From contig NZ_HG931173.1 of assembly GCF_000582785.1 (NCBI RefSeq), positions 557,282 through 621,281 on the forward strand: a DNA stretch of 64,000 bases. Reading direction: 5' to 3'. The stretch's first letter is position 1, and each line of letters starts with the position of its first letter. A program made the translations under genes and the position numbers. Below the pieces are notes generated by a model that was not told the origin of the DNA, made no database searches, and was given only the letters and a program-made list of their open reading frames with translations. The stretch is from Candidatus Blastococcus massiliensis AP3 (GTDB lineage Bacteria > Actinomycetota > Actinomycetes > Mycobacteriales > Geodermatophilaceae). Positions 3,114-37,333 of this stretch are shown here, piece after piece.

Positions 3114-3129
3114 CTAGTGCGAGTAGTAG
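3114..3129. promoter_or_regulatory. BlaI-type operator, site 1
   Basis: CTAGTGCGAGTAGTAG; in the other orientation it reads CTACTA-N6-CTAG, matching the shared motif. It overlaps the predicted transcription and translation start of the small membrane protein gene at 3117. Confidence 0.65.
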
Positions 3130-3323
3130 ACGATCGGAACATCAGTGCCGGTGCTCTCGATGCCATCCTCGCCGTTGACGGGCTCGCCGTCATCGGAACG
3201 ATCGGCTTCTTCGGGCCAGCGGCCGTCCTCCTCGCAATCGTGACGGGCGCAGTAATCCGGGACCGCCGTCTGGCCGCACGCGAGAACGCGGAAGCCGAGC
3301 AGCGCAGCGAGGCGCTCGAGTGA
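3117..3323 (+). CDS. Small single-helix membrane protein
   Basis: 68 residues from a GTG at 3117, the only plausible start because a stop lies 10 bases upstream in frame. One hydrophobic helix spans about residues 22-46, followed by a basic-acidic helical tail. A promoter positioned to give a leaderless message supports the start. Its stop overlaps the GTG of an 18-codon frame that itself overlaps the cupredoxin lipoprotein start, so the operon appears fully coupled. It could be a membrane partner of the lipoprotein or the polytopic protein downstream. Function unknown. Confidence 0.55.
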   Translation: MRVVDDRNISAGALDAILAVDGLAVIGTIGFFGPAAVLLAIVTGAVIRDRRLAARENAEAEQRSEALE

Positions 3324-3376
3324 ACCGGAATCTGCTACGTGCCATCGTCGAGACTGTTCTGGAGCCCACTCAATGA
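3320..3376 (+). CDS. Possible 18-residue peptide
   Basis: GTG at 3320 overlaps the TGA of the preceding gene (GTGA) and the frame ends at 3376, overlapping the ATG at 3373 (ATGA). It would encode MNRNLLRAIVETVLEPTQ. The two 4-base overlaps are typical of real coupled genes, but so short a frame may occur by chance. It might only serve to carry ribosomes to the next gene. Confidence 0.3.
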   Translation: MNRNLLRAIVETVLEPTQ

Positions 3377-3831
3377 CTGCCTCCACCGCCCGGTTCCGCC
3401 GTGTGCCGGCGGCCCTGCTGCTCGCGTCCGTCGTTTCCCTCACCGGCTGCGCTGGAACCGACGAGTCGGAAGCAGGCGCGCAGACCAGCGCTAGCCCGCC
3501 GGCCAGCTCTGCGGCGAGCACTACCCCATCGGCTACGTCAGCCGCCCCCAGCACCACCCCTGCGCCGGCAGGCACGAACGTCGCCGTGTCATACATGGGC
3601 GGCCAGGTGACCGGAGATACCGGCCGAATCCCGGTCGCTTCTGGGGACCAGGTGACGATCACCGTCACGAGCGATGCGACGGACGAGATCCACCTGCACG
3701 GTTATGACCTCTCCGCGCCTGTCGGGCCGGACGCGCCGGGCACGTTGACGTTCCAGGCGTCGATTCCGGGAGTCTTCGAGGTGGAGCTGGAGGAGCTCGG
3801 CACGCTCCTGTTCACCCTTCAGGTCGGATGA
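3373..3831 (+). CDS. Cupredoxin-like lipoprotein
   Basis: 152 residues with a lipoprotein signal (LLLASVVSLTGC, lipobox cysteine near residue 25), a Ser/Thr/Pro/Ala-rich spacer to about residue 70, and a C-terminal beta-sandwich domain. The DEIHLHGYDLS segment gives two histidines where cupredoxins carry the first copper ligand region. There is no Cys-x-His-x-Met ligand loop at the end, so a classical type 1 copper site is not evident. It would be anchored on the outer face of the membrane. It is coupled to the polytopic protein downstream (4-base overlap at 3828) and follows a BlaI-type operator. A copper-carrier role is inferred from fold and neighbours. Confidence 0.75.
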   Translation: MTASTARFRRVPAALLLASVVSLTGCAGTDESEAGAQTSASPPASSAASTTPSATSAAPSTTPAPAGTNVAVSYMGGQVTGDTGRIPVASGDQVTITVTSDATDEIHLHGYDLSAPVGPDAPGTLTFQASIPGVFEVELEELGTLLFTLQVG

Positions 3832-5227: not shown

Positions 5228-5947
5228 TCAGGTCGTGGTGTGCCGCCGAGCCGAGAGCGCCAACACGAGCCCTGTCAGCCCAGCCAGTAGTCCGGCGCCG
5301 CCGACGACGAGCGCGGTCACCGCCAGTCCCGAGCCATCAGAGTTGTCGGCGCTGTCGCTCCCATCGGCCTCGGTCGCCACCCCATCCGCCTCGTCGCCGT
5401 CAGCTGCGCTGTCCACGAGGGACAGCACGGGTGCCGGGTCCTCGGGCTCGGGCTGGCCGTCGAGCGTGGGCTCGATCCACGCGGACTCCTCACCGTCGTC
5501 GTAGGTCTGCAGCGTCGGGAAGGTGATCGTGTCGACGTCCGGGAAAGGGCCGCCGTTGATGGCGAAGGTCTGATACTGACCCGGGCCGATGCCCGCCCCG
5601 GGGTCGGCGGTCCAGACGATCTCCGTGACGGCTTCGCTGACCTCGGTGCCGTGCACGTCGACCGGCGGATCGATCGGGCTCCGCGTCAGGGTCGCGGTCC
5701 ACCCGGGAACCGGCTTCGTCCGCACCGATGCCAGCGGCGTCTCGGCCGGGATCTGGACCCGCAGCGAGATGGTGGAAGCCGTCTGGCTCTCGTTGGGCAC
5801 CCGGAGGGTCACCTCACCGAAGCCGCCGGGCGCAGCGTCAGCGGAGCTGACGCCCACGTGAGCTGACGCGGAGGTCACACCGAGGGCCAGCACGGCCGAC
5901 ATCGAAGCAAGGCCGACGGTCATCGTCCGGGCCAGTCGGGTTGTCAC
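5228..5947 (-). CDS. ycnI: YcnI-like copper-binding protein (DUF1775)
   Basis: 239 residues. The GTG at 5947 has AAGGAG about 8 bases upstream. A signal peptide ends at SASA, leaving a mature N-terminus HVGVSS whose histidine is the copper-brace residue known in YcnI proteins. The DUF1775 beta domain covers about residues 30-170 (GGFGEVTLRVPNES, PGWTATLTRS, and a Trp-containing IVWTADPG region), followed by an acidic linker and a C-terminal membrane helix with a basic tail (ARRH). It would bind copper on the outer face of the membrane. A BlaI-type operator lies 50 bases upstream. Confidence 0.88.
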   Translation of the reverse strand: MTTRLARTMTVGLASMSAVLALGVTSASAHVGVSSADAAPGGFGEVTLRVPNESQTASTISLRVQIPAETPLASVRTKPVPGWTATLTRSPIDPPVDVHGTEVSEAVTEIVWTADPGAGIGPGQYQTFAINGGPFPDVDTITFPTLQTYDDGEESAWIEPTLDGQPEPEDPAPVLSLVDSAADGDEADGVATEADGSDSADNSDGSGLAVTALVVGGAGLLAGLTGLVLALSARRHTTT

Positions 5948-5996: not shown

Positions 5997-6012
5997 CTAC
6001 TAGATCAGTTAG
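5997..6012. promoter_or_regulatory. BlaI-type operator, site 2
   Basis: CTACTAGATCAGTTAG, a full match to CTAC(T/G)A-N6-TTAG, 50 bases upstream of the ycnI-like start on the minus strand. Confidence 0.7.
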
Positions 6013-6080
6013 TCGCTGCTGCTCACGAAGCAGTTCCCGCGATGACTCAGATGTGATGCAGGACATGCCGCCTGGCAGGA

Positions 6081-6102: not shown

Positions 6103-6180
6103 TTGATGGGCACGGGGTATCTATGACTCACGTTCACGTCTACATAGGCGTTACCACTATTGAGACGAGAGGCAGGCACG

Positions 6181-7086
6181 ATGACCGCCGCCGACATCGC
6201 CACCACCACGACGCGCGAAGGCTCCGTGGCCGAACGCCTATTGGCATCGAGCGCCACGCTCTCCTACGACCCGAGTGTCGAGGTTGACTGGGACAGCCCC
6301 CTTGACCCCGGCCACCACGGCGCCAGCCCTGAGTGGTCGACGCTCTACGGAACTCCCTACTGGCAAGAGCTGAGCGAGAGCCAGCGGGCCGAGCTCACCC
6401 GTCAGGAGTCAGCGTCGGTCGCGTGCACCGGAATCTGGTTCGAGATCATCCTGCAGCAGATGATGCTGCGGGACATGTACACCGCCGACCGCACGTCGCC
6501 GGAGTTCCAATGGGCGCTCACGGAGATCGCTGACGAGTGCCGCCACTCGATCATGTTCGCCCGTGGTGCGGCGAAGCTGAATGCACCGGCCTACCTACCG
6601 AAGAGGCGGGTCGTGGAACTGGGACGTCTGTTCAAGACGATCGCCTGGGGCGAGACGGCCTACGCCGCCATCCTGGTCGCCGAGGAGGTGCTGGACGTCA
6701 TGCAGCGCGACTGGATGCGCGACGAGCGGGTGGCACCGTTCGTCCGGACGATCAACAACATCCATGTCGTCGAGGAGTCCCGGCACATGAAGTTCGCCCG
6801 GGATGAGGTGGTCAAGCGCATGCAAGGCGCTGGGCCTCTGCGCCGGCAGGCCACCGCCCTGCTCGTCGCTGCATCCGCGTACCACATCGTGACGAGCATG
6901 GTGAGCGACCGCGCCTACGCCGAAGCGGGCTTGGACGTCGCACGCGCCAAGCGGGAAGCGGCCGGCAACGAGCACTACAAGTCGATGCTTCGCTCGAGCT
7001 GCCGGGGCCTCATGGAGTTCCTCCACTCGGCCGGACTGCTGACCGGCCCTGCGTCGGCGATCTACCGGAAGGCCAACCTGCTGTGA
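6181..7086 (+). CDS. AurF-like diiron N-oxygenase family protein
   Basis: 301 residues from the ATG at 6181, preceded by GAGAGG about 10 bases upstream. The all-helical protein carries the AurF-type metal ligands: a glutamate in GIWFEIILQQ, ExxH in DECRHS, a glutamate in LVAEEVLD and the HxxxE-type helix HVVEESRHMKF. Known relatives oxidise aryl amines to nitro groups or hydroxylate unactivated carbons using a carboxylate-bridged diiron centre. It lies 43 bases upstream of a ferredoxin-NADP reductase with its own ferredoxin domain, a plausible electron donor. The substrate is unknown. No peptide or polyketide synthase is in view, so an antibiotic role is not supported. Confidence 0.85.
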   Translation: MTAADIATTTTREGSVAERLLASSATLSYDPSVEVDWDSPLDPGHHGASPEWSTLYGTPYWQELSESQRAELTRQESASVACTGIWFEIILQQMMLRDMYTADRTSPEFQWALTEIADECRHSIMFARGAAKLNAPAYLPKRRVVELGRLFKTIAWGETAYAAILVAEEVLDVMQRDWMRDERVAPFVRTINNIHVVEESRHMKFARDEVVKRMQGAGPLRRQATALLVAASAYHIVTSMVSDRAYAEAGLDVARAKREAAGNEHYKSMLRSSCRGLMEFLHSAGLLTGPASAIYRKANLL

Positions 7087-7129
7087 TTTCACGCTGCGGC
7101 GCGGGATGCGATCTGGGGCCCCGGCACTC

Positions 7130-8764
7130 ATGACCTACGTCATCACGCAGAACTGCTGCAAGGACGCCTCCTGCGTCGCGGTCTGCCCGGTCAACTGCAT
7201 CCACCCGGCACCCGGCGAGAACGCGTTCGGGTCCACGACGATGCTCTACATCGACCCGAAGGTGTGCATCGACTGCGGAGCGTGCGCCGACGCCTGCCCC
7301 GTCGACGCTGCCCTGCCCGCGGACGTCCTGAGCGGCGCAGACCGGATCTACGTCGACCTCAACGCCGAGCACTTTGCGCGATCGACGGAGCCTGCGGGCC
7401 AAGGCGCCTCTCGCACAGACCCTCTGTTCCACGCATGGGATCGACCGGCCTTCGACTGGTCCCTGCCCAGTGACTTCCGCGGCCTGGACGTCGCCGTCGT
7501 CGGGACCGGCCCGTCCGGCCTCTACGCGGCCGAGCTGCTGCTGTTGCACACCCGCTCGCGCGTCACTCTCATCGACCGGCTGCCGGTGGCGGGAGGCCTG
7601 ATCCGGTACGGCGTCGCGCCGGACCACCCTCGCACCAAAGGCATAACTCACAACCTGGGCCGGCTCTACACGCATCCTCGGGTCAGGCTGCTGCTGGGCA
7701 TCGATGTGGGCGCTGACCTGAGCGTGGACACACTGGCGCAGCACTTCGACGCGGTGATCTACGCCGTCGGCGCGGCCAGTGGCAAGCCGCTCGGCGTCCC
7801 AGGGGAGCGCCTACCCGGTAACCACACAGCTCCTGAGGTCGTCGGCTGGTACAACGCCCACCCGGACATGCCCGCCGACGCAGTCCGCCTGAGGGACGAG
7901 CGGGCGGTCGTCGTCGGCACGGGCAACGTAGCTCTCGATATCGCCCGGATTCTCAGCCGCGATGCCGACGAGCTGGCACGCACCGACATGGCAGACCATG
8001 CGCTCGCGGCCCTTCGGGCAGCGTCAGTGCGCGAGGTGGTTCTGCTCGGCCGGCGCGGTCCAGAGCACGCCGCCTACTCCGCGCCGGAGCTGCTCGCGCT
8101 GCGCCACCTCCCTGGGGTGGAGCTGGTCATCGACGACACCGATCCACGCACCGGGGAGGCCATCGACGCCGCGCCTCAGGGCAGCCAGCAGGACCTGCTT
8201 CGCGGGCTTCCGCGCGCGCTGCTCGACTACTCATCCAGTCCTCAGCCGGGACGGCGCATCGTCCTGCGATTCCACAGCACCGTCGAACGCGTACTGGGTG
8301 ATTCCGTCGCAGAGGGGGTCCGCCTGGTCGACGGCACCGATGTCCTGGCCAGTCCGGTCGTGAGCGCCATCGGCTATGGCGGTCGGGCGATCCAGGGCTT
8401 GCCCTTCGAACCCTCCACCGGACGGGTTCCGCACGTGGCGGGCCGAATCGACGGGGCTCCGGGAGCCTATGCCGTTGGTTGGTTCAAGCGCGGGTCCACC
8501 GGCGGCATCGGAGACAACCGAGTGGATGCCGCCGAGACGGTGCGCACGTTGCTGGACGACGCGATCGCCGGCCGGCTATCCACCCCTCAACGGACACCAC
8601 GTGCCCTCATGAGGTCCGTCCGTCGTTCTCACTCGGGCCTGGTCGACGCCACCGGGCTGGATCGGATTCTCAGCCGCGAGCGTGCGCGCGGACAGGCAAG
8701 CGGCCGACCCGCCGTCAAGTTCGCCACTGTCGAGGACCTGCGGCGCGCCAGCCGTCAGCGTTGA
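7130..8764 (+). CDS. fprB: Ferredoxin-NADP reductase with N-terminal 7Fe ferredoxin domain
   Basis: 544 residues from the ATG at 7130. Residues 1-75 form a ferredoxin domain with the cysteine pattern of 7Fe ferredoxins (CxxxxCVAVCPVNC and CIDCGACADACPVD). From about residue 115 follows an adrenodoxin-reductase-like FAD/NADP module: FAD loop VVGTGPSGLYAAE, GGLIRYGVAPDH, NADP loop VVGTGNVALDIAR and the C-terminal WFKRGSTGGIGDN. This is the arrangement of mycobacterial FprB. It moves electrons between NADPH and a ferredoxin-type acceptor. Placement directly after the AurF-like gene suggests it reduces that diiron enzyme. Confidence 0.88.
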   Translation: MTYVITQNCCKDASCVAVCPVNCIHPAPGENAFGSTTMLYIDPKVCIDCGACADACPVDAALPADVLSGADRIYVDLNAEHFARSTEPAGQGASRTDPLFHAWDRPAFDWSLPSDFRGLDVAVVGTGPSGLYAAELLLLHTRSRVTLIDRLPVAGGLIRYGVAPDHPRTKGITHNLGRLYTHPRVRLLLGIDVGADLSVDTLAQHFDAVIYAVGAASGKPLGVPGERLPGNHTAPEVVGWYNAHPDMPADAVRLRDERAVVVGTGNVALDIARILSRDADELARTDMADHALAALRAASVREVVLLGRRGPEHAAYSAPELLALRHLPGVELVIDDTDPRTGEAIDAAPQGSQQDLLRGLPRALLDYSSSPQPGRRIVLRFHSTVERVLGDSVAEGVRLVDGTDVLASPVVSAIGYGGRAIQGLPFEPSTGRVPHVAGRIDGAPGAYAVGWFKRGSTGGIGDNRVDAAETVRTLLDDAIAGRLSTPQRTPRALMRSVRRSHSGLVDATGLDRILSRERARGQASGRPAVKFATVEDLRRASRQR

Positions 8765-8870: not shown

Positions 8871-9695
8871 TCAGGTCTCCCGGCGGAACATCGACGTGAG
8901 TCCCATGACGCCCAGCATCTGGTCGAAGTAGGGGTTGTCGCCTCGGATGACCGCGTGGCCGCCGGCCCGAGAGGTGCGCTTGGCCCACCGCTGCAGGGGT
9001 GGGAACGCCACGGAGTCGATGTAGGTCAGTCCGCGGACATCGATGGCCACAACCGCCAACTCCTCCAGACGCCGCTGGAGCCCTAGTCGGTCGACGGCCG
9101 GAGCGTCGATCTCACCCCGCAGGTGAACCACCCAACCGTCTCGCTCCTGTTCCACAGAACTGGGGGCCTGCTCGACGGGAGCAGCTTCCCGCTCGACGGC
9201 GACGACGTCGCTGCGGCGCTCGGACAGCCAGCTGACGTGATCCGGCAGCTTGGCCAGCTCCGAGTCCACGGTCTGCTGCACCATCCGCTGCATCGCCTTG
9301 CGCTGCAGCACCTGCCGTAGGCGATTGCCGCCCTGGGAGTCGTGAGACACGGTCACCGTGACGCGCGTGACACCCGGCGAGGCGTCAGCGAGTTCGACGC
9401 GGGTCTGCCAGTTCTCCGACGCCAACTCCAACCGGGTCCCGATGCGTTCCTCCGCGACCCATTCGACGACTTCCCCGCTGACCGCGCCCGGAGGCGGCGG
9501 CATATCGTCCAGCCGCCCCTGCGCGCAGACGAAGCGAGTCCCCTTGCCCATGACCGCGTCCGCGTCTGTCCCTACGCCCTCCGAGAAGACGTAGGAAACG
9601 TCGCACACCGGGCAGTACGCGGTTAGGGCGGTCAGTGCCCGCCACACGGACTGCCGAGCGAACGGAACCTCGCGTGTTCCTGAGGCGGTCGTCAT
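8871..9695 (-). CDS. SRPBCC-STAS two-domain protein
   Basis: 274 residues from an ATG at 9695 with GAAGGAA about 5 bases upstream. Residues 1-150 resemble an SRPBCC/polyketide-cyclase fold used as a lipid or ligand pocket. A linker (about 160-190) leads to a C-terminal STAS domain (about 192-272) with VVAIDVRGLTYIDSVAFPPLQ, where anti-anti-sigma factors have the phosphorylatable serine in a DSxG-like turn; here it reads IDSVAF. It may tie ligand sensing to an anti-sigma or envelope partner. Its promoter region carries BlaI-type site 3. No membrane segment is seen. Confidence 0.7.
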   Translation of the reverse strand: MTTASGTREVPFARQSVWRALTALTAYCPVCDVSYVFSEGVGTDADAVMGKGTRFVCAQGRLDDMPPPPGAVSGEVVEWVAEERIGTRLELASENWQTRVELADASPGVTRVTVTVSHDSQGGNRLRQVLQRKAMQRMVQQTVDSELAKLPDHVSWLSERRSDVVAVEREAAPVEQAPSSVEQERDGWVVHLRGEIDAPAVDRLGLQRRLEELAVVAIDVRGLTYIDSVAFPPLQRWAKRTSRAGGHAVIRGDNPYFDQMLGVMGLTSMFRRET

Positions 9696-9741
9696 CCCGT
9701 TCCTTCGACTTCGAGGGGCCGGTCAGATCTCTGGGCCGGCA

Positions 9742-9757
9742 CTAACAAGACTAGTAG
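9742..9757. promoter_or_regulatory. BlaI-type operator, site 3
   Basis: CTAACAAGACTAGTAG; the reverse complement reads CTACTA-N6-TTAG, a full match. It lies 47 bases upstream of the SRPBCC-STAS start (minus strand). Confidence 0.7.
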
Positions 9758-9794: not shown

Positions 9795-9810
9795 CTACGA
9801 TCCACGTTAG
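9795..9810. promoter_or_regulatory. BlaI-type operator, site 4
   Basis: CTACGATCCACGTTAG, a full match, 34 bases upstream of the ctaG-like GTG at 9844 (plus strand). Sites 3 and 4 give each of the two divergent genes its own operator. Confidence 0.7.
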
Positions 9811-9843
9811 GAGAATGTGGATCAGCGCCGTGGAGGAGGTTCC

Positions 9844-10803
9844 GTGGAGCACGGGCGACACTCGGGCATGTGGGTGCCCGACGAGCCACCGACGTGGGGG
9901 CGGATGTTCCTGCCACACCTGGAGGCCTCGTCGGTCCTGGCAGTGCTGAGCCTCGTCGCGCTGGTGGTGTACCTGGCCGCGGTCATGCGGTTGCGCCGAA
10001 CGGGCGTCTCCTGGCCCTGGTGGCGAACGCTCTCCTGGCTCGCCGGGACTGCGTCTCTGTTCGCCGTCACCGGCACCTGGTTGAACGGCTACAGCATGGT
10101 GCTGTTCAGCGTCCACATGACCCAGCACATGGTCCTGTCACTGATCACGCCACTGCTGCTCCTGGTCGCCGCACCGGTGACTCTCGCGCTGCGGACCCTG
10201 CCCCGAGGCCAAGGCGTGTCCGGCGTCCCGCGGGCACTGCTCCTCAACGGGCTACACAGCCGCCTGGCACGGCTTCTCGCCCACCCGCTGTTCTCTATCC
10301 CGCTGTTCCTTGCGAGCCTCTACGGCGTCTACTTCACGCCACTCTTCGACGCTTTGATGAGCAACCCCGCCGGGCACCAGCTGATGTTGGCGCACTTCGT
10401 CGTCACCGGGATCCTGTTCTTCGGGCCGATCGTGGCGCAGGATCCCTGGCCCCGGACGCTGAGCCACCCCGGCCGGATGCTCGAGCTCTTTCTGCCCGTG
10501 CCGTTTCACGCGTTCTTCGGCGTCGCGATCATGATGGCCAGCTCACTGGTCGTCGACACGTTTGCCCAGCCCCCGGCCGGTTGGGGCATCGACCCGCTGC
10601 GAGACCAGGGCGAGGCCGGCGGCATCGTCTGGGCCTTCGGAGAACTGCCCACCGTGCTGGTACTGGCAGTCGTCTTCTTCTCCTGGGCCAGTTCCGACGA
10701 GCGGCGCGGCAAGGCCCTGGACCGGGCAGCCGACCGGACCGGTGACGCCGAGCTGGCGGAGTACAACGCTCGACTTCGCGCCATGGCGTATTTGAACAGG
10801 TGA
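9844..10803 (+). CDS. ctaG: CtaG-family cytochrome oxidase assembly protein
   Basis: 319 residues. The GTG at 9844 is chosen because GGAGGAGG ends 5 bases upstream; an in-frame GTG at 9817 lacks a ribosome site. About seven membrane helices carry the family's histidines in HMTQHMVLSLITPLLLL and HQLMLAHFVVTG, with PVPFHAFFGVAIM later. The caa3-type CtaG family is needed for copper insertion or assembly of cytochrome c oxidase in Bacillus and actinomycetes. A lone oxidase subunit I gene is present at 28295-30046, a likely client. Control by BlaI-type site 4 is inferred. Confidence 0.9.
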   Translation: MEHGRHSGMWVPDEPPTWGRMFLPHLEASSVLAVLSLVALVVYLAAVMRLRRTGVSWPWWRTLSWLAGTASLFAVTGTWLNGYSMVLFSVHMTQHMVLSLITPLLLLVAAPVTLALRTLPRGQGVSGVPRALLLNGLHSRLARLLAHPLFSIPLFLASLYGVYFTPLFDALMSNPAGHQLMLAHFVVTGILFFGPIVAQDPWPRTLSHPGRMLELFLPVPFHAFFGVAIMMASSLVVDTFAQPPAGWGIDPLRDQGEAGGIVWAFGELPTVLVLAVVFFSWASSDERRGKALDRAADRTGDAELAEYNARLRAMAYLNR

Positions 10804-12248: not shown

Positions 12249-12303
12249 GGCTCGCTCCCTGGGGAAGAGGGTGGCGGTATGGATGAGCCAGAGCAGAGTC
12301 CCA

Positions 12304-12319
12304 CTAACTCAGATAGTAG
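12304..12319. promoter_or_regulatory. BlaI-type operator, site 5
   Basis: CTAACTCAGATAGTAG; the reverse complement reads CTACTA-N6-TTAG. It sits 56 bases upstream of the M23 gene starting at 12248 (minus strand). Confidence 0.7.
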
Positions 12320-26199: not shown

Positions 26200-26209
26200 G
26201 GGGGCCTCA

Positions 26210-26225: not shown

Positions 26226-26289
26226 GAGCGGGCTGAGCGTGAACGTGATCTGGCGAGTGGAAGCGGTCTGGCTACCTGCGTCCGTGACG

Positions 26290-28100: not shown

Positions 28101-28180
28101 GGACCCACTTCCTCTCGCCGCGACTCCGCCGAAGCACCGTGACGGCCGCACGCAGGGGACGCGCCCCTCGTCGACCCCTT

Positions 28181-28196
28181 CTACGATCCTACTTAG
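28181..28196. promoter_or_regulatory. BlaI-type operator, site 9a
   Basis: CTACGATCCTACTTAG, a full match, in the divergent blaI-ctaD intergenic region and the copy nearer to blaI. Confidence 0.75.
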
Positions 28197-28205
28197 GAGA
28201 TACCT

Positions 28206-28221
28206 CTACGATTCAGCTTAG
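28206..28221. promoter_or_regulatory. BlaI-type operator, site 9b
   Basis: CTACGATTCAGCTTAG, a full match, 25 bases from site 9a and 74 bases before the ctaD start. The paired sites could let BlaI dimers control both divergent promoters. Confidence 0.75.
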
Positions 28222-28294
28222 AAGATCGATCAGCTCGCCGGGCGCAGCCCCAGCTGATCGTCGGCCCCCGCCTCCGTGAAAGTGAGCCGCGACG

Positions 28295-30046
28295 ATGACG
28301 ATCGCCCCAGCCCCGATCGTTTCCCGGCCAAGTCTGGCTCCGCCACCGACCAAGGGGTCGCGACTGACCAGCCTGCTGCGAACCACCGACCACAAGACCA
28401 TCGGCCTGATGTACATGGTCGCGTCGTTCGGGTTCTTCATGATCGGTGGCCTGATGGCCATGTTGATGCGCGGCGAGCTAGCCCTTCCGGGCCTTCAGTT
28501 CACTTCCCCCGAGCAGTACAACCAGCTGTTCACCATGCACGGCACCATCATGCTGCTGATGTTCGCGACGCCACTTTTCTTCGCGTTCGCAAACCTGATC
28601 ATGCCGCTGCAGATCGGTGCCCCCGACGTAGCGTTCCCACGGCTGAACGCGCTGTCGTTCTGGTTGTTCCTCTTCGGCAGCCTGATCGTGGTCTCCAGCG
28701 TCGCCACCCCCGGCGGGGCCCCGGACTTCGGCTGGACAGCCTATGCACCGCTGTCGAGCGAGCTGCACTCCCCGGGCGTGGGCGGTGACCTGTGGATCAC
28801 CGGCCTGGCGGTCAGCGGTCTCGGCACGATCCTGGGTGCGGTCAATTTCATCACCACGATCGTGAGCCTCCGCGCCCCCGGCATGACGATGTTCCGGATG
28901 CCGATCTTCGTCTGGAATACGCTGGTCACCAGCATCATGATCCTGCTGGCCTTCCCGATCCTGACCGCGGCGCTACTCGCCTTGCTCGCCGATCGCAACC
29001 TCGGGTCCCTCATCTTCTCGGCCGAGAACGGCGGGCCGATGCTCTGGCAGCACCTGTTCTGGTTCTTCGGCCACCCCGAGGTCTACATCATCGCGCTGCC
29101 GTTCTTCGGCATCGTCACCGAGATCATCCCGGTCTTCGCCCGCAAGCCGCTGTTCGGCTACAAGGGCATGGTCGGGGCGACTCTGGCCATCGGCTTCCTC
29201 GCCCTCGCCGTCTGGGCGCACCACATGTATGCCACCGGCGCGGTGCTGCTGCCCTTCTTCGCCTTCCTCACCTACCTGATCGCGGTACCCACCGGGCTGA
29301 AGTTCTTCAACTGGATCGGCACCATGTGGCGGGGTCAGATGACCTACGAGACGCCGATGCTGTTCTCCATCGGTTTCATGGTGACCTTCCTGCTCGGTGG
29401 TCTGACCGGTGTGCTGCTGGCCTCCCCGCCGCTGGACTGGCAGGTGCACGACTCCTACTTCGTCGTGGCGCACTTCCACTACGTCGTCTTCGGCACCGTG
29501 GTGTTCGCCGCCTACGCCGGTATCTATTTCTGGTTCCCCAAGATGTGCGGCCGGATGATGGACGAGCGACTGGGCAAGCTGCAGTTCTGGATGACCTTCG
29601 TCGGCTTCCACGGCACGTTCCTCGTGCAGCACTGGCTGGGCAACCAGGGCATGCCGCGCCGATATGCCGACTATCTGCCCACTGATGGGTTCACCACGCT
29701 GAACATGATTTCCACAATCTTCAGCTTTGTGCTCGGCGCCTCGGTGATCCCGTTCATCTACAACGTGGTGCGGTCCTGGAAGTACGGAAAGCTCGCCCTG
29801 CGCGACGACCCGTGGGGTTACGGCAACTCGTTGGAGTGGGCGACGTCGTCCCCGCCGCCGCGGCACAACTTCGTGGAGCTTCCGCGGATCCGCTCCGAGC
29901 GCCCCGCGTTCGAGGCGCACTACCCGCACCTGGTCGAGCGGCTGCAGGACGAGGCGCACGCGGGCAAGCGCCACGCCCCCTACGTCAGCGAGCTCATCCC
30001 AGGCACGGGAAAGCGTCAAGGCCCGAACGACCCTGACGTCACCTGA
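28295..30046 (+). CDS. ctaD: Cytochrome c oxidase subunit I, stand-alone copy
   Basis: 583 residues with about twelve membrane helices and all heme-copper ligand motifs: MHGTIM, the Tyr-His pair in [15 protein letters not shown] and [11 protein letters not shown]- and D-channel regions look normal. It is a full-length aa3-type subunit I, but no subunit II or III gene is in the island, so it must use subunits encoded elsewhere or act as an alternative catalytic subunit. CtaG, ResABC and CcdA are on the same island. It is transcribed away from blaI across two operators. Confidence 0.95.
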
Positions 30047-30109: not shown

Positions 30110-31075
30110 TCAGTGGAGACTCGGAACTGACGCGGCGACGGTAGTCGCCACGGGGTTGTGCCGGTAGAACTGGTCCTCGTGCTCGGCCGGTGGGATCAGG
30201 CCGATCTCGCCGTGTAGGCGTCGGTGGTTGAACCAGTCGACGTATTCGGCGACGGCGATCTCAAGGTCGTCGATGCCCTTCCAGGGGCCGCGGTTGCGCA
30301 CCAGCTCGGCTTTGAACAGCGAGTTGAACGCCTCAGCCAGCGCGTTGTCATAGGAGTCGCCGGTCGAGCCGACCGACGCGACCGCGCCGGCCTCGGCGAG
30401 GCGCTGGGTGTAGCGCACCGCGACGTACTGCACGCCCTTGTCCGAGTGGTGAATGAGGCCGCCGAGGTCCCGGCCGGTCCGCCGGCGGGTCCAGATGCCC
30501 ATCTCCAGCGCGTCCAGCGCGAGGTCGGTGCGCAGCGAGCGGGACAGCTGCCAACCGACCACCCGGCGGGAGTAGACGTCGATGACGAAGGCGGCGTAGA
30601 CCCAGCCGGAGAACGTCCGGCAGTAGGTGATGTCGGCAACCCACAACTGGTCCGGGCCGGTCGCGGTGAACGCCCGATCGACCAGGTCCGGGCGGGTGTC
30701 CGGGCCGGAGCCGGGCACGGTGGTGCGCGGGCCCTTGGCCCGCGTGATGCCGCGCAGGCCGGCGGAGCGCATCAGTCGCTCGACGGTGCAGCGAGCCACG
30801 GCGTGGCCCTGTCGACGTACTTCGGCATGGACCTTGCGGGCGCCGTAGACGCCGTAGTTGTCGGCGTGGACCTTCTCGATCACCGCGGTGGTTGCGGCGT
30901 CGGTGACCGCCCGCGCCGACGGCGGCCGGGTGCGGTGGGCGTAGTAGGTGCTCGGGGCGATCTTCGCGCCGGCCTCGGTGAGGACGCGGCAGATCGGCTC
31001 GACCCCGTGTTCGAGCTTGTGCTGATCGATGTAGTCGACGATCAGCGGGAGGGGCGGTCGAGCTCCGCCGCGAAG
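30110..31075 (-). CDS. IS3-family transposase OrfB (DDE domain, -1 frame)
   Basis: The frame is read as the -1 continuation of orfA, beginning within the orfA 3' end near 31075. An internal GTG at 30883 also exists. The rve/DDE integrase core is intact: WVADITYCRTF, LIHHSDKGVQY and the Glu helix NALAEAFNSLFKAEL. The terminal region HRRLHGEIG is also typical. It works as an OrfAB fusion made by ribosomal frameshifting; I could not fix the slip site. Confidence 0.88.
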   Translation of the reverse strand, partial: LRGGARPPLPLIVDYIDQHKLEHGVEPICRVLTEAGAKIAPSTYYAHRTRPPSARAVTDAATTAVIEKVHADNYGVYGARKVHAEVRRQGHAVARCTVERLMRSAGLRGITRAKGPRTTVPGSGPDTRPDLVDRAFTATGPDQLWVADITYCRTFSGWVYAAFVIDVYSRRVVGWQLSRSLRTDLALDALEMGIWTRRRTGRDLGGLIHHSDKGVQYVAVRYTQRLAEAGAVASVGSTGDSYDNALAEAFNSLFKAELVRNRGPWKGIDDLEIAVAEYVDWFNHRRLHGEIGLIPPAEHEDQFYRHNPVATTVAASVPSLH

Positions 31076-31374
31076 AAAGCCGACGCGCTCTTCAGGATCG
31101 CGTTCGCCCGGCGCAGCTCCCGGTTCTCCCGTTCGAGCTCGGCCAGCCGAGTGGCGTCATCGGTCGTTGTCCCGGGCCGGTGCCCCTCGTCGACCTCGGC
31201 CTGGATGACCCAGTTGCGCAGCGTCTCGGGGTTGATGCCCAGCTGCTCGGCGATCCGCTTCAACGCTCCAGTCCGAGTGGCCGGGTCACGCCGGGCGTCG
31301 ACCGCCAGCCGGATCGCCCGCTCCCGCAGCTCGTCGGGGTACTTCCTCGGTGCCGCCATGACTCTCATCCTCAC
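31042..31374 (-). CDS. IS3-family transposase OrfA
   Basis: 110 residues: a basic helix-turn-helix (KYPDELRERAIRLA, AEQLGINPETLRNWV) and a leucine-zipper-like helix near the C-terminus (LAELERENRELRRANAILK). It recognises the IS ends and forms the N-terminal part of the transposase fusion. Confidence 0.9.
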   Translation of the reverse strand: MRMRVMAAPRKYPDELRERAIRLAVDARRDPATRTGALKRIAEQLGINPETLRNWVIQAEVDEGHRPGTTTDDATRLAELERENRELRRANAILKSASAFFAAELDRPSR

Positions 31375-31547: not shown

Positions 31548-32840
31548 TCAAGCCTCGAACAGAGTCCTTCCCCACCAGTCGTCGGCATCGCGAGCTCCCG
31601 GCGGGCAGGCGAACACGGCGGAGGACCTGTGCTGGATGAACCGGTTGAGCGCATCCGCGGCAAGGTTTCGCTGCACCTGCACGAAGCCGGTATCCGGGTT
31701 GCGCTGGTAGGCAATGAAGAAGAGGCCGGCATCGAGACGGCCGGAATCGTCTGTGCCGTCCACGAAGCTGTACCCACGCCGCAACATGGCCGTTCCTGAA
31801 TTGGTGGGATGAGACAGGAATACATGCGAGTTATGCGGGATGGCCGGACCATCGCCCCTGACGGCGCCGAAGTCGGTCGGGTCGAATTCCTTTCGCTGAC
31901 CCAGCGGCGCGCCCGCGGTCTTCGTGCGTCCGATCACCGCCTCCTGGTGGGGTGCGGGCACCTGGTCCCAGTCCTCGATCAGCATGCGGATCCGACGGGT
32001 GACCAGATAGGAACCGCCGGCCAGCCAAGCGACGTCGTCCTCCCCCACCCATACGAACTGCTCGAGTGCGCTGCCGTTCTCGGCCTTGAGGTTGGCCGTG
32101 CCGTCCTTGAAGCCGAGGAGGTTGCGCGGCGTCGCCTGCGCCGTACTGGTGGATGACGTGCGGCCGAACCCGAGTTGGGTCCAGCGCACACGCACCACCC
32201 CGACGCCCAGGCGCACCAGGCTGCGCACGGCGTGCACCGCCACCTGGGGGTCGTTGGCGCACGCCTGGACGCACAGGTCCCCCCCGCTGATGGAGGGATC
32301 GAGCGCGTCGCCTGGGAACACTGGTAGCTCGACCAGGGATTTCGGGCGACGAGCCGCCAGTTCGAAGCGGTCGACTCCATCGCCCGTCATGAACAGCGTC
32401 GGTCCGAATCCGACGGTCAGCGTGAGGCCGGACGGCGGTAGTCCCTGCGCCTCACCACTGTCGTCCGGGCCGACGATCTCACCGGCGGTCAGTCGCCGGG
32501 CGGCCGCCGTCCACGACGCCAGCATTGCCACGAGCGCCTCACGGCTGTCGGTGACGACGTCGAACGCGACGAAGTGGAGCCGGTCCTGCGCCGGCGTCAC
32601 GATCCCCGCCTGGTGAGTACCCGTGAACTCGACCGGCGTGGGAGACTCCCGCGCTGTCGACGGCGACACGACGGGCGACGGCGGCCTCGCGGCGGTCGTG
32701 CGACCTACTACTCCCCCGACTGCCCCGGACGCCAGGACGCCCGCGGTCCCGAGCCCCGCCATGCCGAAGAGCTTTCGACGGGACAGGCCGCGCTCCTGCC
32801 TCTCCGCCGGTCGGTCCGCCGGCGGCGACTCGTCAGTCAC
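31548..32840 (-). CDS. DyP-type heme peroxidase with Tat signal (EfeB-like)
   Basis: About 430 residues from the GTG at 32840; a GTG at 32885 would add 15 residues but lies only 13 bases from the operator, whereas the chosen start is 58 bases away like other operator-start distances here. Twin-arginine signal SRRKLFGMAG, then DyP domain with GFKDGTAN (the GxxDG motif) and the proximal heme histidine in IPHNSHVFLSHP. Such enzymes reduce peroxides outside the cell; the EfeB subgroup works with iron uptake, but efeU/efeO are not here. Confidence 0.9.
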   Translation of the reverse strand: MTDESPPADRPAERQERGLSRRKLFGMAGLGTAGVLASGAVGGVVGRTTAARPPSPVVSPSTARESPTPVEFTGTHQAGIVTPAQDRLHFVAFDVVTDSREALVAMLASWTAAARRLTAGEIVGPDDSGEAQGLPPSGLTLTVGFGPTLFMTGDGVDRFELAARRPKSLVELPVFPGDALDPSISGGDLCVQACANDPQVAVHAVRSLVRLGVGVVRVRWTQLGFGRTSSTSTAQATPRNLLGFKDGTANLKAENGSALEQFVWVGEDDVAWLAGGSYLVTRRIRMLIEDWDQVPAPHQEAVIGRTKTAGAPLGQRKEFDPTDFGAVRGDGPAIPHNSHVFLSHPTNSGTAMLRRGYSFVDGTDDSGRLDAGLFFIAYQRNPDTGFVQVQRNLAADALNRFIQHRSSAVFACPPGARDADDWWGRTLFEA

Positions 32841-32897
32841 GACAGGATCCGCGGAGCTTCGCACGTTGAAAACTGAAGGGCGCACACCACGGCCAGG

Positions 32898-32913
32898 CTA
32901 CTATCCGACATAG
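32898..32913. promoter_or_regulatory. BlaI-type operator, site 10
   Basis: CTACTATCCGACATAG, matching CTACTA-N6-ATAG, upstream of the DyP peroxidase gene on the minus strand. Confidence 0.65.
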
Positions 32914-33118
32914 GAGTCTGGTCCGCTCGGCACCCAGACTTAAGGCGGGCTGATGATCGGGTCGGGCAACGCCGAGGCCAGTTTGGCAATCGCGACAATC
33001 CGCGACCGCGGATTCGTGCGGTGACCTGCGTTGCGGGCTGCGACACGCCGCGGCCCGCTCTCGGCCCAACCAGAGAGGAACGCCGGCAGCGAGCCGTGCC
33101 GGCGTGCCGCATCGACGG

Positions 33119-33134
33119 CTACTACCTTGACTAG
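33119..33134. promoter_or_regulatory. BlaI-type operator, site 11
   Basis: CTACTACCTTGACTAG, matching CTACTA-N6-CTAG, 107 bases before the NlpC/P60 gene start at 33241. Confidence 0.6.
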
Positions 33135-33240
33135 TCGTGACGTCTACGCACTCCAGGACGATGGGACCCACTTGTTCCGGCAACACTTGGGCCTACCTCG
33201 ACGCTGACCTGCGGACCGGTGCACGACAGCGGGAGACCTG

Positions 33241-33813
33241 ATGATGGATGGAATGTCGCAGGTGCAGTCACGCATCGCCGAGATTCAGGCGCAGCTCGCG
33301 CCACTGGGTGCGCGACCGCGCGCGACCGCGGCCGACTGGATGTCCGCTGCGACCGCTGCCGGTCTGGTGGACGCCTCACGGCCGCCGGCTGTGGCCACGA
33401 GTTCGCCTGCCGGCGCGACCGATGCGGCGCCGATGGTCGCCGGAACGGACCGCGAGTCCGCCATCACGGGAAAGGCGCTCCAGTATCTCGGAGTGCCCTA
33501 CCTATGGGGCGGCACCGACCCCTCGAAGGGTCTCGACTGCTCCGGATTCACACAGTTGGTCTACAAGAGTCAGGGCGTAGACCTCCCCCGCGTCTCCTCT
33601 CAGCAGGCGACCGCTGGACGAGCTGTCCCGTCGATGGCGGAGGCCCGCCCGGGGGATCTGCTGTTCTTCGACTACTCGCCCGAGAGGCCAGGTATCGACC
33701 ACGTGGGGATCTTCATGGGTGACGGCAAGATGATTGCCGCGCCACAACCCGGCGAGGTCGTCAAGATCCAGTCGGTGGGCGATCCCACCGTGATTCGCCG
33801 GGTGCTCTCGTAG
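33241..33813 (+). CDS. NlpC/P60 cysteine peptidase
   Basis: 190 residues from the ATG at 33241, with GGGAG upstream. The N-terminal 70 residues are Ala/Thr-rich with a short coiled segment (VQSRIAEIQAQLAPL). The NlpC/P60 domain (about 75-188) has catalytic Cys in GLDCSGFTQLVY and His in IDHVGIFMG. No classical signal peptide is visible, so export may need another route or the true start may differ. It would cut peptidoglycan stem peptides. Confidence 0.85.
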   Translation: MMDGMSQVQSRIAEIQAQLAPLGARPRATAADWMSAATAAGLVDASRPPAVATSSPAGATDAAPMVAGTDRESAITGKALQYLGVPYLWGGTDPSKGLDCSGFTQLVYKSQGVDLPRVSSQQATAGRAVPSMAEARPGDLLFFDYSPERPGIDHVGIFMGDGKMIAAPQPGEVVKIQSVGDPTVIRRVLS

Positions 33814-34266
33814 GCAGTCGCCTCGAGCGAGGAGACAGCTTCGTCGGACGGCGCTGACAGCAGGTCCCGCCTCTGCTCGCTGGCGCAAGTCTGCTCACCT
33901 CGCCGAGACGCTTCTGGTCGATGAAGACGGCCCACCGCTGCATCCCGCCACACCGACTGCGTGCACTTCGGCTCTGCGCTCCAGCGATCCCGCCCGCAAG
34001 TCGCATCGAACCGATGGACCGCATCGGTGCCGTCTGCGCGGCTCGCCGTCGGTAGCTGATGACCCGTCGCTCCTATCTACTAAAGCGCATCGTAATCTAT
34101 CGGCGGTCGGCACTCCCACCAGCGCTCGACCACGCCGTCGGCCACGGTCCGCATGGACCGCGGCGCGCGCAGGCAGCCTGCAAGAAGGAGCCGCAGTGAG
34201 TTGGTGCTCGAGCGTCCGGACGAGTTCAACGACCCCTCTTCAAGGCACGGGTACAGCGAGGACGGC
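33814..34266. other. Non-coding gap before resB
   Basis: No convincing gene in 453 bases. It contains the degenerate operator at 34080-34095. An in-frame upstream ATG for resB exists at 34153. Confidence 0.5.
34080..34095. promoter_or_regulatory. BlaI-type operator, degenerate site 12
   Basis: CTAAAGCGCATCGTAA; the reverse complement TTACGA-N6-TTAG differs from the motif only at the first base. It precedes resB. Confidence 0.45.
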
Positions 34267-35880
34267 ATGACCGACCTGCAGACCCAGCCCGACCGAGCAT
34301 CGGTCGCCGCCCATCAGAACTCGGTGCTGCGCCGACCTGGACGGTGGCTGGTGCGCCGCTGGCGGTGGTTGACCAGCATGCGGACGGCGGTGGTGCTGCT
34401 GTTCCTGCTGGCGCTGGCGGCTGTGCCCGGCTCGCTGTTCCCGCAGCGGTCGTTGACCCCCAGCGCGGTGGCCCGGTACTTCCGAGAAAATCCCGACCTG
34501 GCGCCTGTCCTCGACAGGTTGTGGATGTTCGACGTCTTCGCCAGCCCGTGGTTCTCGGCGATCTACCTCCTGCTCTTCATCTCGCTCATCGGCTGCCTGG
34601 TCCCGCGCTGCACCGAGCACCTGCGGGCCCTACGGGCCGAGCCGCCGCCCGTACCTCGGCATCTGCACCGGCTCCCGGTTCACACGGAGAACACGGTGTC
34701 ACTGCCCTCGGAGACGGTGGCTGAGCAGCTCGAGGCCGATCTGCGATCGGCGCGGTTCCGGGTGTCCCGACGCAGCATCCCCGGTGGTGTGGAGATATCG
34801 GCCGAGCGCGGTCGGGTGAAGGAAACCGGCAACCTCGTCTTTCACGTCTCGCTCTTGGCCCTGCTCGTCGCGCTGGCCGGCGGCAAGTTGTGGGGCTACG
34901 AAGGCAGCATCCTGGTTACCGAGGGAGACGGCTTCTGCAACTCCTTCCAGCAGTACGACCGGTATGTCGCAGGGCCGTTGGTGGATCCGGACGGCCTGAC
35001 GCCGCTCTGCTTCGACCTGGAGGATTTCCGCGCCACGTACGAGCCGAACGGCACGCCGGCCTCCTTCACCGCCGACATCGGGGTGCAGGCAGAGCCGGGA
35101 GCGGCCACGGAGCAGACGACGATCGGGGTCAACGACCCGTTCCGCTCCGACGGGGACCGTCTGTACGTGACGGGGCACGGCTTCACACCCCTTTTCACAG
35201 TGACGCTGCCGGGCGGTCAGGTCTTCGAGCAGCTGTCGGCACCGTTCCTGCCCCGGGACAGCACGACGTTCGCCAGCGAGGGGGTCGTGAAGTTGCCGGA
35301 TCTCGGTGACGGCTCCGGTGACGGGTTCGCCCTCGAGGGCTTCTTCGCTCCGACCGGCCTGATCCAGGGCGGCGTCCTGACCTCGGTGGATGCGCGGCCG
35401 CTCAACCCGCAGGTCGCCATCGTCGGCTATCGCGGCTACCTGGGGCTGGACAGCGGTGCGCCACAGTCGGTCTTCACGCTGGACCAACGACAGATCGACG
35501 TCGGTGCGCTGAACCAGATCGGGGAGGCGAACTTGGACATCGGCGAGAGCGCAGAGTTCGAAGACGGCACCGTCGTCCGCTTCGACGGGTTCCGTGAGTT
35601 CGCGGCCCTGCAGGTGTCGCACGATCCGGGGCAGGTCGCTGTCCTCATCAGCGCCATCACCATGCTGCTCGGACTTCTGGTCACACTGCTGGTGCGCCGG
35701 GAGCGGGTCTTCGCTCGAATTGCCAGCTCGCAGGTGTCGAGCTCTGTCGACGACCGGTCGACGACGGTGTCGATGGCGGGACTCGCACTGGGTGGGAACG
35801 GTGACATCCGCGAACGACTCCACGGACTCACCAGCAGCCTGCTCGGTGACAGCCAGCCGGGACAACACCACGGCCGTTGA
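34267..35880 (+). CDS. resB: ResB cytochrome c maturation protein
   Basis: 537 residues from the ATG at 34267 (GAGG about 8 bases upstream); an ATG at 34153 in frame would lie 57 bases from the operator and is an alternative. Membrane helices near residues 38-60, 100-122 and 190-215, then a large outer domain (about 215-470) and a last helix (about 475-495). N-terminal TSMRTAVVLLFLLALAAVPGSLFPQR is typical of ResB/Ccs1. It pairs with ResC (14056) to ligate heme to apocytochrome c. Confidence 0.93.
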   Translation: MTDLQTQPDRASVAAHQNSVLRRPGRWLVRRWRWLTSMRTAVVLLFLLALAAVPGSLFPQRSLTPSAVARYFRENPDLAPVLDRLWMFDVFASPWFSAIYLLLFISLIGCLVPRCTEHLRALRAEPPPVPRHLHRLPVHTENTVSLPSETVAEQLEADLRSARFRVSRRSIPGGVEISAERGRVKETGNLVFHVSLLALLVALAGGKLWGYEGSILVTEGDGFCNSFQQYDRYVAGPLVDPDGLTPLCFDLEDFRATYEPNGTPASFTADIGVQAEPGAATEQTTIGVNDPFRSDGDRLYVTGHGFTPLFTVTLPGGQVFEQLSAPFLPRDSTTFASEGVVKLPDLGDGSGDGFALEGFFAPTGLIQGGVLTSVDARPLNPQVAIVGYRGYLGLDSGAPQSVFTLDQRQIDVGALNQIGEANLDIGESAEFEDGTVVRFDGFREFAALQVSHDPGQVAVLISAITMLLGLLVTLLVRRERVFARIASSQVSSSVDDRSTTVSMAGLALGGNGDIRERLHGLTSSLLGDSQPGQHHGR

Positions 35881-36007: not shown

Positions 36008-36166
36008 TCAGCCGCCCACCGTCACGTCGTTGAACGGAAGGCGCGGCTCCATCCACGGGAAGACGACGAACAGCAGCAGCGCGCAGACCACAAGCACCAA
36101 GGCCAGCGCGGTCACCGCCCTGGTCGCCGTGCCACCGGGCAGGTGACGCCACATCCAGAGGTACAT
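36008..36166 (-). CDS. Small sortase-associated membrane protein
   Basis: 52 residues starting MYLWMWRHLPGG at 36166, 10 bases after the sortase stop, with GAGAGG as ribosome site. One membrane helix (about residues 20-40) ends in VVFPWMEPRLPFNDVTV. Tiny proteins with this WRHLPG...FPWxEP pattern are, to my knowledge, regular neighbours of class E sortases in actinobacteria. Function unknown; perhaps a sortase partner. Confidence 0.8.
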   Translation of the reverse strand: MYLWMWRHLPGGTATRAVTALALVLVVCALLLFVVFPWMEPRLPFNDVTVGG

Positions 36167-36176
36167 GCGGGTCCTC

Positions 36177-36929
36177 TCAGCTCTCGCGCAGGGCCGGCGG
36201 GCCGTCGGGCATCTCGGTCTTGGTCAGGCCGTCGCCCTCCAGCCCGGCGTGGATGATCAGCCGCTGCCGCGCGGAGTACTTCGGATGGCACGTGGTCAGC
36301 GTCAGATATGCCCCGCTCGGTGGACCGTCCTCGGCTCCATTGGGCGTCGGCGAGATCACTTCGATGTCGGACGGACGGACGATCTGTTGGCCGGGAATCC
36401 CGCTCGGGTCGGTGGTGAAGTCGCCCGTCACAGGGTCCCCGAGTACCCGATAGACGAACCAGCGGTCGGCCGTCTCGATGACGATGGGGTCACCCGGACG
36501 CAGCCGGTCAAGATCCAGGAACGGCGACCCTTGGCCGACCCGGTGACCCGCGAGCGCCACGTTGCCCTGCTCGCCCGGCAACGCCGTCCCCTCGTAGTGG
36601 CCCGGCCCCTGCGCCAGCTGCTCCTCGGCGGTGCCCTCGAGCACGACCTGCTCGTAGTCAGCACCCAGCCTTGGGATGTGCAGAACGGCGAACGCGTCGC
36701 CCAGGATGCTGACGCGCGGCGCCGGACGGGCTTCTGCCTCCGCCGTCCATCCCTGACGCAGATCCCTCTTCAGCTGGTCCTGCCTGCGGTCAGTGAGCAC
36801 GTCGGTCACGAACAGCTCGTAGACGACGAATAGAAGCACCACGAGGCCCCCGGTCACCAGGACCTCTCCGATCGAACGGGCAACGGTGCGCCATCGAGAC
36901 TGAGCGCTAGTGGATTGCGTGCCGTGCAC
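36177..36929 (-). CDS. srtE: Class E-type sortase
   Basis: 250 residues from the GTG at 36929 with TAGGAG about 7 bases upstream. N-terminal membrane anchor (about residues 20-43), then the sortase beta-barrel with catalytic His in NVALAGHRV, Cys in LTLTTCHP and Arg in YSARQRLI (TC-x8-R spacing). It would attach proteins to the wall. I found no clear LPxTG or LAxTG substrate in the window. A BlaI-type operator lies 145 bases upstream. Confidence 0.92.
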   Translation of the reverse strand: MHGTQSTSAQSRWRTVARSIGEVLVTGGLVVLLFVVYELFVTDVLTDRRQDQLKRDLRQGWTAEAEARPAPRVSILGDAFAVLHIPRLGADYEQVVLEGTAEEQLAQGPGHYEGTALPGEQGNVALAGHRVGQGSPFLDLDRLRPGDPIVIETADRWFVYRVLGDPVTGDFTTDPSGIPGQQIVRPSDIEVISPTPNGAEDGPPSGAYLTLTTCHPKYSARQRLIIHAGLEGDGLTKTEMPDGPPALRES

Positions 36930-37333
36930 TCAGTGCTCCTAGGTCGGATGCCATGTAATCGAATCGCGTTGTGAGGCTGCTGGAACGACGAGGCGGGATG
37001 CCCAAGACGTAGAAGAACGAGCCGCTTGTCCGCGTACCTGGCGGCCCGCCGACATCCCCCTGCACAACATCCACTACGACGGATAGTAGTAGCCGAGCTG
37101 TTCAACGCGTTGGATCTCGATGCCCCGGGCGGGAGCGCGTCGTCGCGGCGTGGTCCCCCGACGATCCTGCGAGACGCGATCCCGTCCCCGGACACCACGC
37201 CGTCGGGATCTCTGTCGCCGCCCACCACACACCCATCGCACCGCCGGCCGGTCGCCTCACACGGCGGGGCACCGTTGCCGCTCCGCCTGCAACGCCGGCG
37301 TCACCGGAATCACGCTGCCGCCGACCGCCCTGG
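36930..37333. other. Non-coding gap at right border of cargo
   Basis: 404 bases without a convincing gene between the sortase and the LysM-SARP gene. It contains operator site 13 and forms the right border between BlaI-type cargo and Tad-like genes. Confidence 0.5.
37074..37089. promoter_or_regulatory. BlaI-type operator, site 13
   Basis: CTACGACGGATAGTAG; CTAC/GTAG arms are a perfect dyad and the reverse complement reads CTACTA-N6-GTAG. It is 145 bases upstream of the sortase and is the right-most copy seen. Confidence 0.65.

Follow-up and report, generated by a model that had tools for sequence, protein, structure and literature searches.

The window analysed here, 64,000 nucleotides of Candidatus Blastococcus massiliensis AP3 (family Geodermatophilaceae; contig NZ_HG931173.1, positions 557,282 to 621,281), carries a gene pair encoding a BlaI-type repressor (27714-28151, minus strand) and a BlaR-like membrane metalloprotease (26773-27717, minus strand), and 15 copies of a short inverted repeat, the putative BlaI operator, are spread over 34 kb around it. 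The repressor matches the Penicillinase_R family PF03965 with 86.4 bits (cut-off 22.6), and its best named matches are proteins of Blastococcus strains (100%, 100% and 99%). The only PDB sequence matched at an E-value of 0.001 is 2g9w, a match in the 30% class, which we take to be BlaI of M. tuberculosis (Rv1846c). BlaR consists of 314 amino acids with a single Pfam match, the peptidase domain PF01435 (M48) with its HEXXH and ExxxD motifs, and possesses two cysteines of interest, Cys74 and Cys311. The genes copD, copC and a cupredoxin gene are located downstream of blaR on the same strand (24519-26748, minus strand; PF05425, PF04234 and PF13473).

Two operators, 28181-28199 (score 20.9) and 28206-28224 (17.3), separate blaI from ctaD, which encodes subunit I of an aa3-type oxidase (28295-30046, plus strand; NF050116, 977.9 bits). 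The operator at 5997-6015 (18.3) lies between ycnI (DUF1775; 5228-5947, minus strand; PF07987) and an AurF-like gene accompanied by a ferredoxin/FAD reductase gene (6160-8764, plus strand; PF11583, PF07992 and Fer4), and those at 9739-9757 (18.5) and 9795-9813 (19.9) are found between a STAS-domain gene (8871-9695, minus strand; PF13466) and ctaG (9817-10803, plus strand; PF09678). Three genes for M23 peptidases (all PF01551) are preceded by one operator each: M23a (10887-12248, minus strand) by 12301-12319 (23.0), M23b (12473-13735, minus strand) by 13959-13977 (17.4), at a distance of 224 bp, and M23c (19765-20478, plus strand) by 19679-19697 (17.1). The operator at 16715-16733 (20.7) overlaps the start of lnt, which stands with ccsB (14056-16715, minus strand; PF20154 and PF01578), by one base, and 16792-16810 (18.8) precedes dsbA, the first of four genes with VKOR, resA and ccdA (16850-19649, plus strand; PF13462, PF07884, PF00578 and PF02683). 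Further operators are located before the genes for a DyP-type peroxidase (31548-32885, minus strand; PF04261 and PF20628; operator 32898-32916, 24.5) and an NlpC/P60 peptidase (33241-33813, plus strand; PF00877; operator 33119-33137, 19.2), before resB (34153-35880, plus strand; PF05140; operator 34077-34095, 19.6) and 142 bp before a sortase gene (36177-36929, minus strand; PF04203; operator 37071-37089, 21.5, with a second register at 37074-37092 scoring 20.7). The nearest modelled starts to the operator at 3111-3129 (16.1) are 178 and 244 bp away.

ctaD and the DyP gene are separated by an inserted IS3-type transposase gene pair (30110-31374; rve and HTH_21, orfA by eye). No boundary of an island was detected around the 34-kb set, and the window contains one tRNA-Asn gene (55554-55627).

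The operator and its association with one type of BlaI

The strict pattern CTACKAN7TAG has 14 exact matches in the window, which represent 13 distinct sites since the site at 37074 matches on both strands. These are the 13 good copies of the initial annotation, at the coordinates given there, and 100 dinucleotide shuffles of the window yielded a mean of 0.05 and a maximum of one match. The whole genome (3,874,680 bases in four contigs) contains 17 distinct strict sites, 13 of which fall inside this 34 kb; a chance origin of the sites is ruled out by the shuffles and by this clustering. A symmetric 19-bp matrix gives scores of 16.1 to 24.5 for all 15 sites, values that are not independent because the training set comprised the relatives plus the window, and the next-best match in the window reaches 10.3. 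Thus, two copies previously considered degenerate are real members of the set. A first-order Markov simulation predicts 0.19 matches above 12 per 64 kb. None of the 15 sites lies inside a gene model, although the models, which were built from open reading frame (ORF) composition and Pfam, cover 84% of the stretch; the intergenic position claimed initially was therefore confirmed. The initial annotation placed most sites 30-110 bases before a start; those at 3111-3129, 13959 and 37071 are farther from the nearest modelled start (178, 224 and 142 bp).

The operator was originally described as CTAC(T/G)A-N6-NTAG. This form had to be revised, as the symmetric matrix converged on a 19-bp dyad, CTAC(T/G)A-N7-T(A/C)GTAG, i.e., an inverted repeat of the type CTACTA-N7-TAGTAG. 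The evidence comes from columns 17-19, which lie outside the search pattern: among 159 distinct strict-site sequences, taken from the window and from 40 fetched regions with overlaps and both strands retained, they show T, A and G with frequencies of 0.64, 0.74 and 0.65, respectively. The mirrored half is thus visible in columns that the search did not select, and an asymmetric 16-bp motif was rejected. The dyad is also conserved between relatives. For footprinting against aligned counterparts, eleven loci were aligned, three of which (L020, L021 and L023) were dropped as near-identical to the window or repeats of others, and one (L129) covered no site. The 19 site pairs from the remaining seven loci, which are not independent since some sites were counted in more than one locus, revealed changes in 8 of 228 half-site bases (3.5%), compared to 31 of 133 spacer bases (23%) and 217 of 958 flanking bases (23%). 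In relatives, 153 of 180 sites with scores above 15 lie outside crudely called ORFs.

Sites and BlaI occur together in the family. Genes for BlaI proteins with more than 85 bits to that of the window (window-type BlaI) were found 30 times in 21 of 57 family genomes, and a strict site is present within 20 kb of all 30 and within 2 kb of 26 of them. At least three sites within 20 kb are found in 19 of the 21 genomes; the association is significant (Fisher, 3e-13). Site clusters in relatives that lack this type of BlaI, which the initial annotation had named as evidence that would speak against it, did not appear among the 57 family genomes: two sites within 20 kb occur in none of the 36 genomes without window-type BlaI, some of which are 73-83% complete. 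A more distant "core" BlaI is encoded by 48 genes in 47 genomes, and only one of these genes lies within 20 kb of a strict site. The host genome encodes two more window-type BlaI proteins (C1:535545 and C3:270500), and a strict site lies close to each of the two genes. Genome G012 contains a single site and genome G015 two, and in both genomes one site is located 1.6 kb from blaI; for 29 of the 174 sites in the 21 genomes, no window-type blaI is found within 40 kb on the same contig.

The association extends to other taxa. A matrix trained on this family only was applied to 64 held-out loci of other taxa, and the region from 300 bp before to 60 bp after the start of the blaI match was searched with a threshold of 12. 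Outside Streptomyces, 31 of 41 loci had such a site before blaI, including loci of Nocardioides, Arthrobacter, Actinomadura, Lentzea, Kribbella, Pseudofrankia, Aeromicrobium and Herbidospora; in Streptomyces, it was one of 23. As background, 119 of 2858 windows in other parts of these loci exceeded 12, other operators included. These candidate inverted repeats, like those before blaI in the window, show the geometry of BlaI sites (CTA-N7-TAG). BlaR adjoins BlaI in 35 of the 41 non-Streptomyces loci and in none of the 23 Streptomyces loci, for which reason the Streptomyces BlaI proteins look like another subtype. At chromosomal Streptomyces BlaI loci, a pair of dyads was seen around 8 kb from blaI and near an M23 gene, without an adjacent BlaR (e.g., L066 18293-18532 and L073 18193-18432).

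The core blaI genes have dyads of their own. TTCTAC-N5-GTAGAA is present beside the gene in 20 of 20 core regions (L177-L196; host region G000:C3:736001-741000), and a slightly looser pattern detects two or three dyads in 19 of them. The core CTA-N7-TAG is common to this dyad, to the operator of the window and to the motif determined for BlaI_0696 of C. thermocellum, and the flanking bases differ. The latter motif was described, based on DNA affinity purification sequencing, as inverted GTCTAT repeats with five nucleotides in between (PMC8457756). The proteins differ in their presumed recognition regions: AYTTVMTV(M/L)DNL is found in nearly all of 104 BlaI proteins above 80 bits, which form a redundant set, and most of 20 core BlaI proteins have ALTTVHTVLxRL. 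That residues of this region contact DNA is our assumption. A gene start that we take to be that of a CydA-like protein was detected by a crude string match in 13 of the 20 core regions, and the core BlaI-BlaR pair may control cytochrome bd.

BlaI is singled out here because the sites precede blaI, the dyad core is shared with other BlaI sites and no other regulator was recognized among the window proteins scanned. Together with the co-occurrence, the recurrence of sites before blaI in other genera and the footprinting, this supports the earlier proposal that BlaI governs the whole set, and BlaI very probably binds and controls these sites. That the dyad is bound by a different regulator encoded in the island, BlaI being a mere neighbour, is highly improbable: co-occurrence alone cannot separate neighbours, several window proteins have no Pfam match, and the one encoded at 2007-2933 appears helix-turn-helix-like by eye, but this protein is unmatched in 15 region maps, the helix-turn-helix domain of the IS3 transposase is the only other regulator-like family among the window proteins scanned (2007-40705), and both the recurrent position before blaI and the common core point to BlaI.

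BlaR and the closest known systems

The residues H180, E181, H184, E221 and D225, which form the HEXXH and ExxxD motifs, are invariant in 36 aligned BlaR proteins, and homologs encoded beside BlaI are annotated as M56 peptidases in six plasmid records. Pfam recognized no penicillin-sensor or other beta-lactam domain in the window BlaR, which disfavours the sensing of beta-lactams by this protein. Two cysteines, one in the loop between hydrophobic stretches 2 and 3 and one in the C-terminal tail, are present in 64 of 69 distinct BlaR proteins, in five of six plasmid-encoded ones and in none of 19 core BlaR proteins, which have neither. For BlaR1 of staphylococci, an extracellular position has been reported both for EL1, the loop equivalent to the one between stretches 2 and 3, and for the C-terminal sensor, and EL1 participates in signalling (PMC9834060). 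With the membrane topology assigned by eye, the cysteine pair of BlaR may face outward, and it may sense copper; the chances that the pair is the sensor are about even.

The circuit resembles the PetR-PetP system of Synechocystis, in which a BlaI-type factor is under the control of a copper-dependent BlaR-type protease and which is described as having a four-protein regulon (PMC7896320, PMC13421787, PMC10141476). Judged by genes rather than operators, both systems consist of an adjacent BlaI-type factor and BlaR-type membrane protease, have copper-related targets and are proposed to depend on copper-dependent proteolysis (PMC7896320); the adjacency of BlaR and BlaI in 35 of 41 loci and the copper genes behind the operators agree with this. 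However, the Synechocystis regulon comprises four proteins and PetR also activates petJ according to the reports, whereas the set described here has 15 operators in 34 kb, combines copper and envelope genes and is also found on plasmids.

CopY/CopR repressors belong to the same superfamily, have copper-linked targets and bind an inverted-repeat operator. CopY, however, senses copper via C-terminal CXC motifs (PMC7253601), and no CXC is present in the last 45 residues of any of 104 BlaI proteins of the window type; a CopY-like mode, in which BlaI itself would bind copper, was therefore rejected. The reported cop box, RNYKACANNTGTMRNY (PMC7253601), also differs from CTAC(T/G)A-N7-T(A/C)GTAG, and the window BlaI reaches 35 bits with the CopY/TcrY equivalog TIGR02698, whose cut-off is 121.95. 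With BlaI-BlaR1 and MecI-MecR1, the pair shares a repressor and a membrane gluzincin protease with HEXXH and ExxxD motifs, but neither a penicillin-sensing C-terminal domain nor a beta-lactamase gene was recognized among the proteins scanned here. For BlaI of M. tuberculosis (Rv1846c), a regulon beyond beta-lactamase has been reported, which includes sigC and ATP synthase genes; the listed targets, however, are unlike the window set. In terms of gene content, lgt2-lit2 of Listeria and Enterococcus is also comparable: on mobile elements, a second lgt that is induced by copper shares a transcript with copper-resistance genes (PMC8275575). The counterparts here are lnt in the window and lgt in relatives, within a copper-linked set that is much larger than that of lgt2-lit2.

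Copper as the candidate signal

Comparable gene sets are found in other actinobacteria, both on islands and on plasmids. At other loci, the genes or apparent operons behind operators encode SCO1, DUF6153-DUF305, a multicopper oxidase, Lgt, CcmF and a CsoR-family protein; in one genome (G048), a RicR-like protein, which scores below the cut-off, and a copper-type P-ATPase are encoded behind one operator. The AurF-like and ferredoxin/FAD reductase genes, which share the ycnI operator in the window, have homologs behind an operator in a further genome (G023, locus L132). A BlaI match was found in 72 plasmid records, six of which were examined. Four of these contain 15 sites with scores above 15, all of them outside annotated genes, and a gene start lies within 350 bp of 13 sites. 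The nearby genes encode M23 peptidases, CtaD (two sites), cytochrome oxidase subunit III/RipC, L,D-transpeptidase/CcdA, TlpA, DUF305 and BlaI. On a Mycolicibacterium vanbaalenii plasmid (L202 14255-14288), ctaD is likewise preceded by a pair of operator-like sites, at 66 and 81 bp from its start, as in the window. The comparative tests and the plasmid annotation thus support the earlier view of a copper, cytochrome and cell-wall set rather than a beta-lactamase regulon.

The best explanation of the whole, to which we assign a probability of roughly 0.8, is a copper- or thiol-sensing BlaI-BlaR circuit with a regulon of 15 operators. Dimeric BlaI would bind the 19-bp dyad at 15 places, thereby repressing the operon that encodes it, blaI-blaR-cupredoxin-copC-copD, along with about twelve promoters nearby. 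On the outer face of the membrane, Cys74, located between helices 2 and 3, and Cys311 in the C-terminal tail would sense copper or copper-driven thiol chemistry and switch on the protease, and active BlaR would cleave BlaI, thereby releasing the regulon. Its products would bind, transport or deliver copper and would provide a second set of enzymes for envelope assembly, including kinds that have been reported as copper targets. Binding, repression, topology and proteolysis are predictions in this scheme, and the signal is probably copper or a copper-linked envelope signal.

A more tentative proposal is that the set represents a transferable "spare-parts" island of Actinomycetota, in which copper stress, sensed by a two-cysteine switch on the outer face that takes the place of a penicillin sensor, induces a second envelope-assembly set that replaces copper-damaged housekeeping enzymes. 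The spare parts would possibly comprise an oxidase subunit and enzymes for cytochrome c maturation, disulfide formation and lipoprotein maturation as well as wall hydrolases, beside classical copper export and oxidation. In E. coli, copper was reported to impair the acylation of lipoproteins, which yields forms resembling those of Lgt depletion (PMC6538781), and cytochrome c assembly is a reported periplasmic target of copper (cited in PMC6247083 and PMC11591864). Second copies were searched for four of the genes: the host genome contains two further copies of ctaD (91% and 89%) and one other copy each of resB (62%), lnt (63%) and ccsB (63%), none of which has a strict site within 10 kb.

The same pair might serve copper supply rather than defence: in the presence of copper, BlaR would destroy BlaI, and CtaD, SCO1, CtaG and the cytochrome c maturation machinery would be built. 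This would suit ctaD, ctaG and, in relatives, SCO1, which are oxidase or oxidase-biogenesis genes, and PetP is described as destroying PetR when copper is present (PMC7896320, PMC13421787). However, the other copies of CtaD, ResB, CcsB and Lnt are encoded away from any strict operator, and the multicopper oxidase, the copper-type ATPase, CopC/D and the presence on plasmids fit defence better, which makes a supply switch unlikely. Even less probable is a response to beta-lactams or other wall damage, by which the M23, NlpC/P60, sortase and lipoprotein enzymes would be induced, the copper genes being passengers. The namesakes of the family are described as sensing beta-lactams (PMC7593790), and operators of the window and of plasmids precede several genes for wall hydrolases, but Pfam detected no beta-lactamase or penicillin-binding domain among the window proteins scanned (2007 to 40705), the short BlaR matches a peptidase family only, and in other genera, too, copper genes follow the operators.

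Several observations weigh against the copper-sensing BlaI-BlaR circuit. Genes that travel together co-occur anyway, so that co-occurrence cannot fully separate them. In relatives, 27 of the 180 sites lie inside the crudely called ORFs, and with the matrix used, no site was found before blaI in 10 of 41 non-Streptomyces and 22 of 23 Streptomyces loci. Two of the six plasmids (Kitasatospora and Pseudonocardia) carry similar genes and no site above 15. A draw from the class yielded 16 perfect dyads in 14 of 148 genomes, and only seven of these 16 dyads lie within 20 kb of a BlaI match (E-value of 1e-18 or better), and most of the 54 class genomes with a BlaI match, that of the window included, have no perfect dyad; this class-level test is weak. 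The reversed control pattern outnumbered the motif in most genomes and was judged to be codon-like and unsuited as background. Concerning BlaR, Pfam places the protein in M48, and a profile search of PDB sequences matched HtpX and not BlaR1. Five of the 69 BlaR proteins have one cysteine only (three in the tail, the loop having a histidine, and two in the loop), and one of the six plasmid-encoded proteins lacks one of the two. Within the island, genes for a P-type ATPase, which scores above the cut-off for the Cd/Zn and below that for the Cu subfamily, and for a CDF transporter (20924-24314) have no operator, and the cytoplasmic-looking AurF-like and STAS proteins are not explained.

The kind of circuit is already known, since a BlaI-type factor under a copper-dependent BlaR-type protease exists in Synechocystis. 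Targeted literature searches, which covered freely accessible papers, returned PetR-PetP and, among the matches listed, no paper on the actinobacterial regulon; within this literature, what appears to be new is the operator found in actinobacteria, the extent of the regulon and its gene content, its occurrence on plasmids and the pair of cysteines. If the proposed circuit is correct, a family annotated as penicillinase repressors would be the regulator of a widespread copper-linked envelope regulon of actinobacteria with a known operator, which enables such regulons to be found by genome scanning. The sensor predicted is a simple one, a pair of cysteines in a membrane protease, and could be tested by mutation. 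The gene list would then catalogue those envelope processes for which a backup exists under metal stress.

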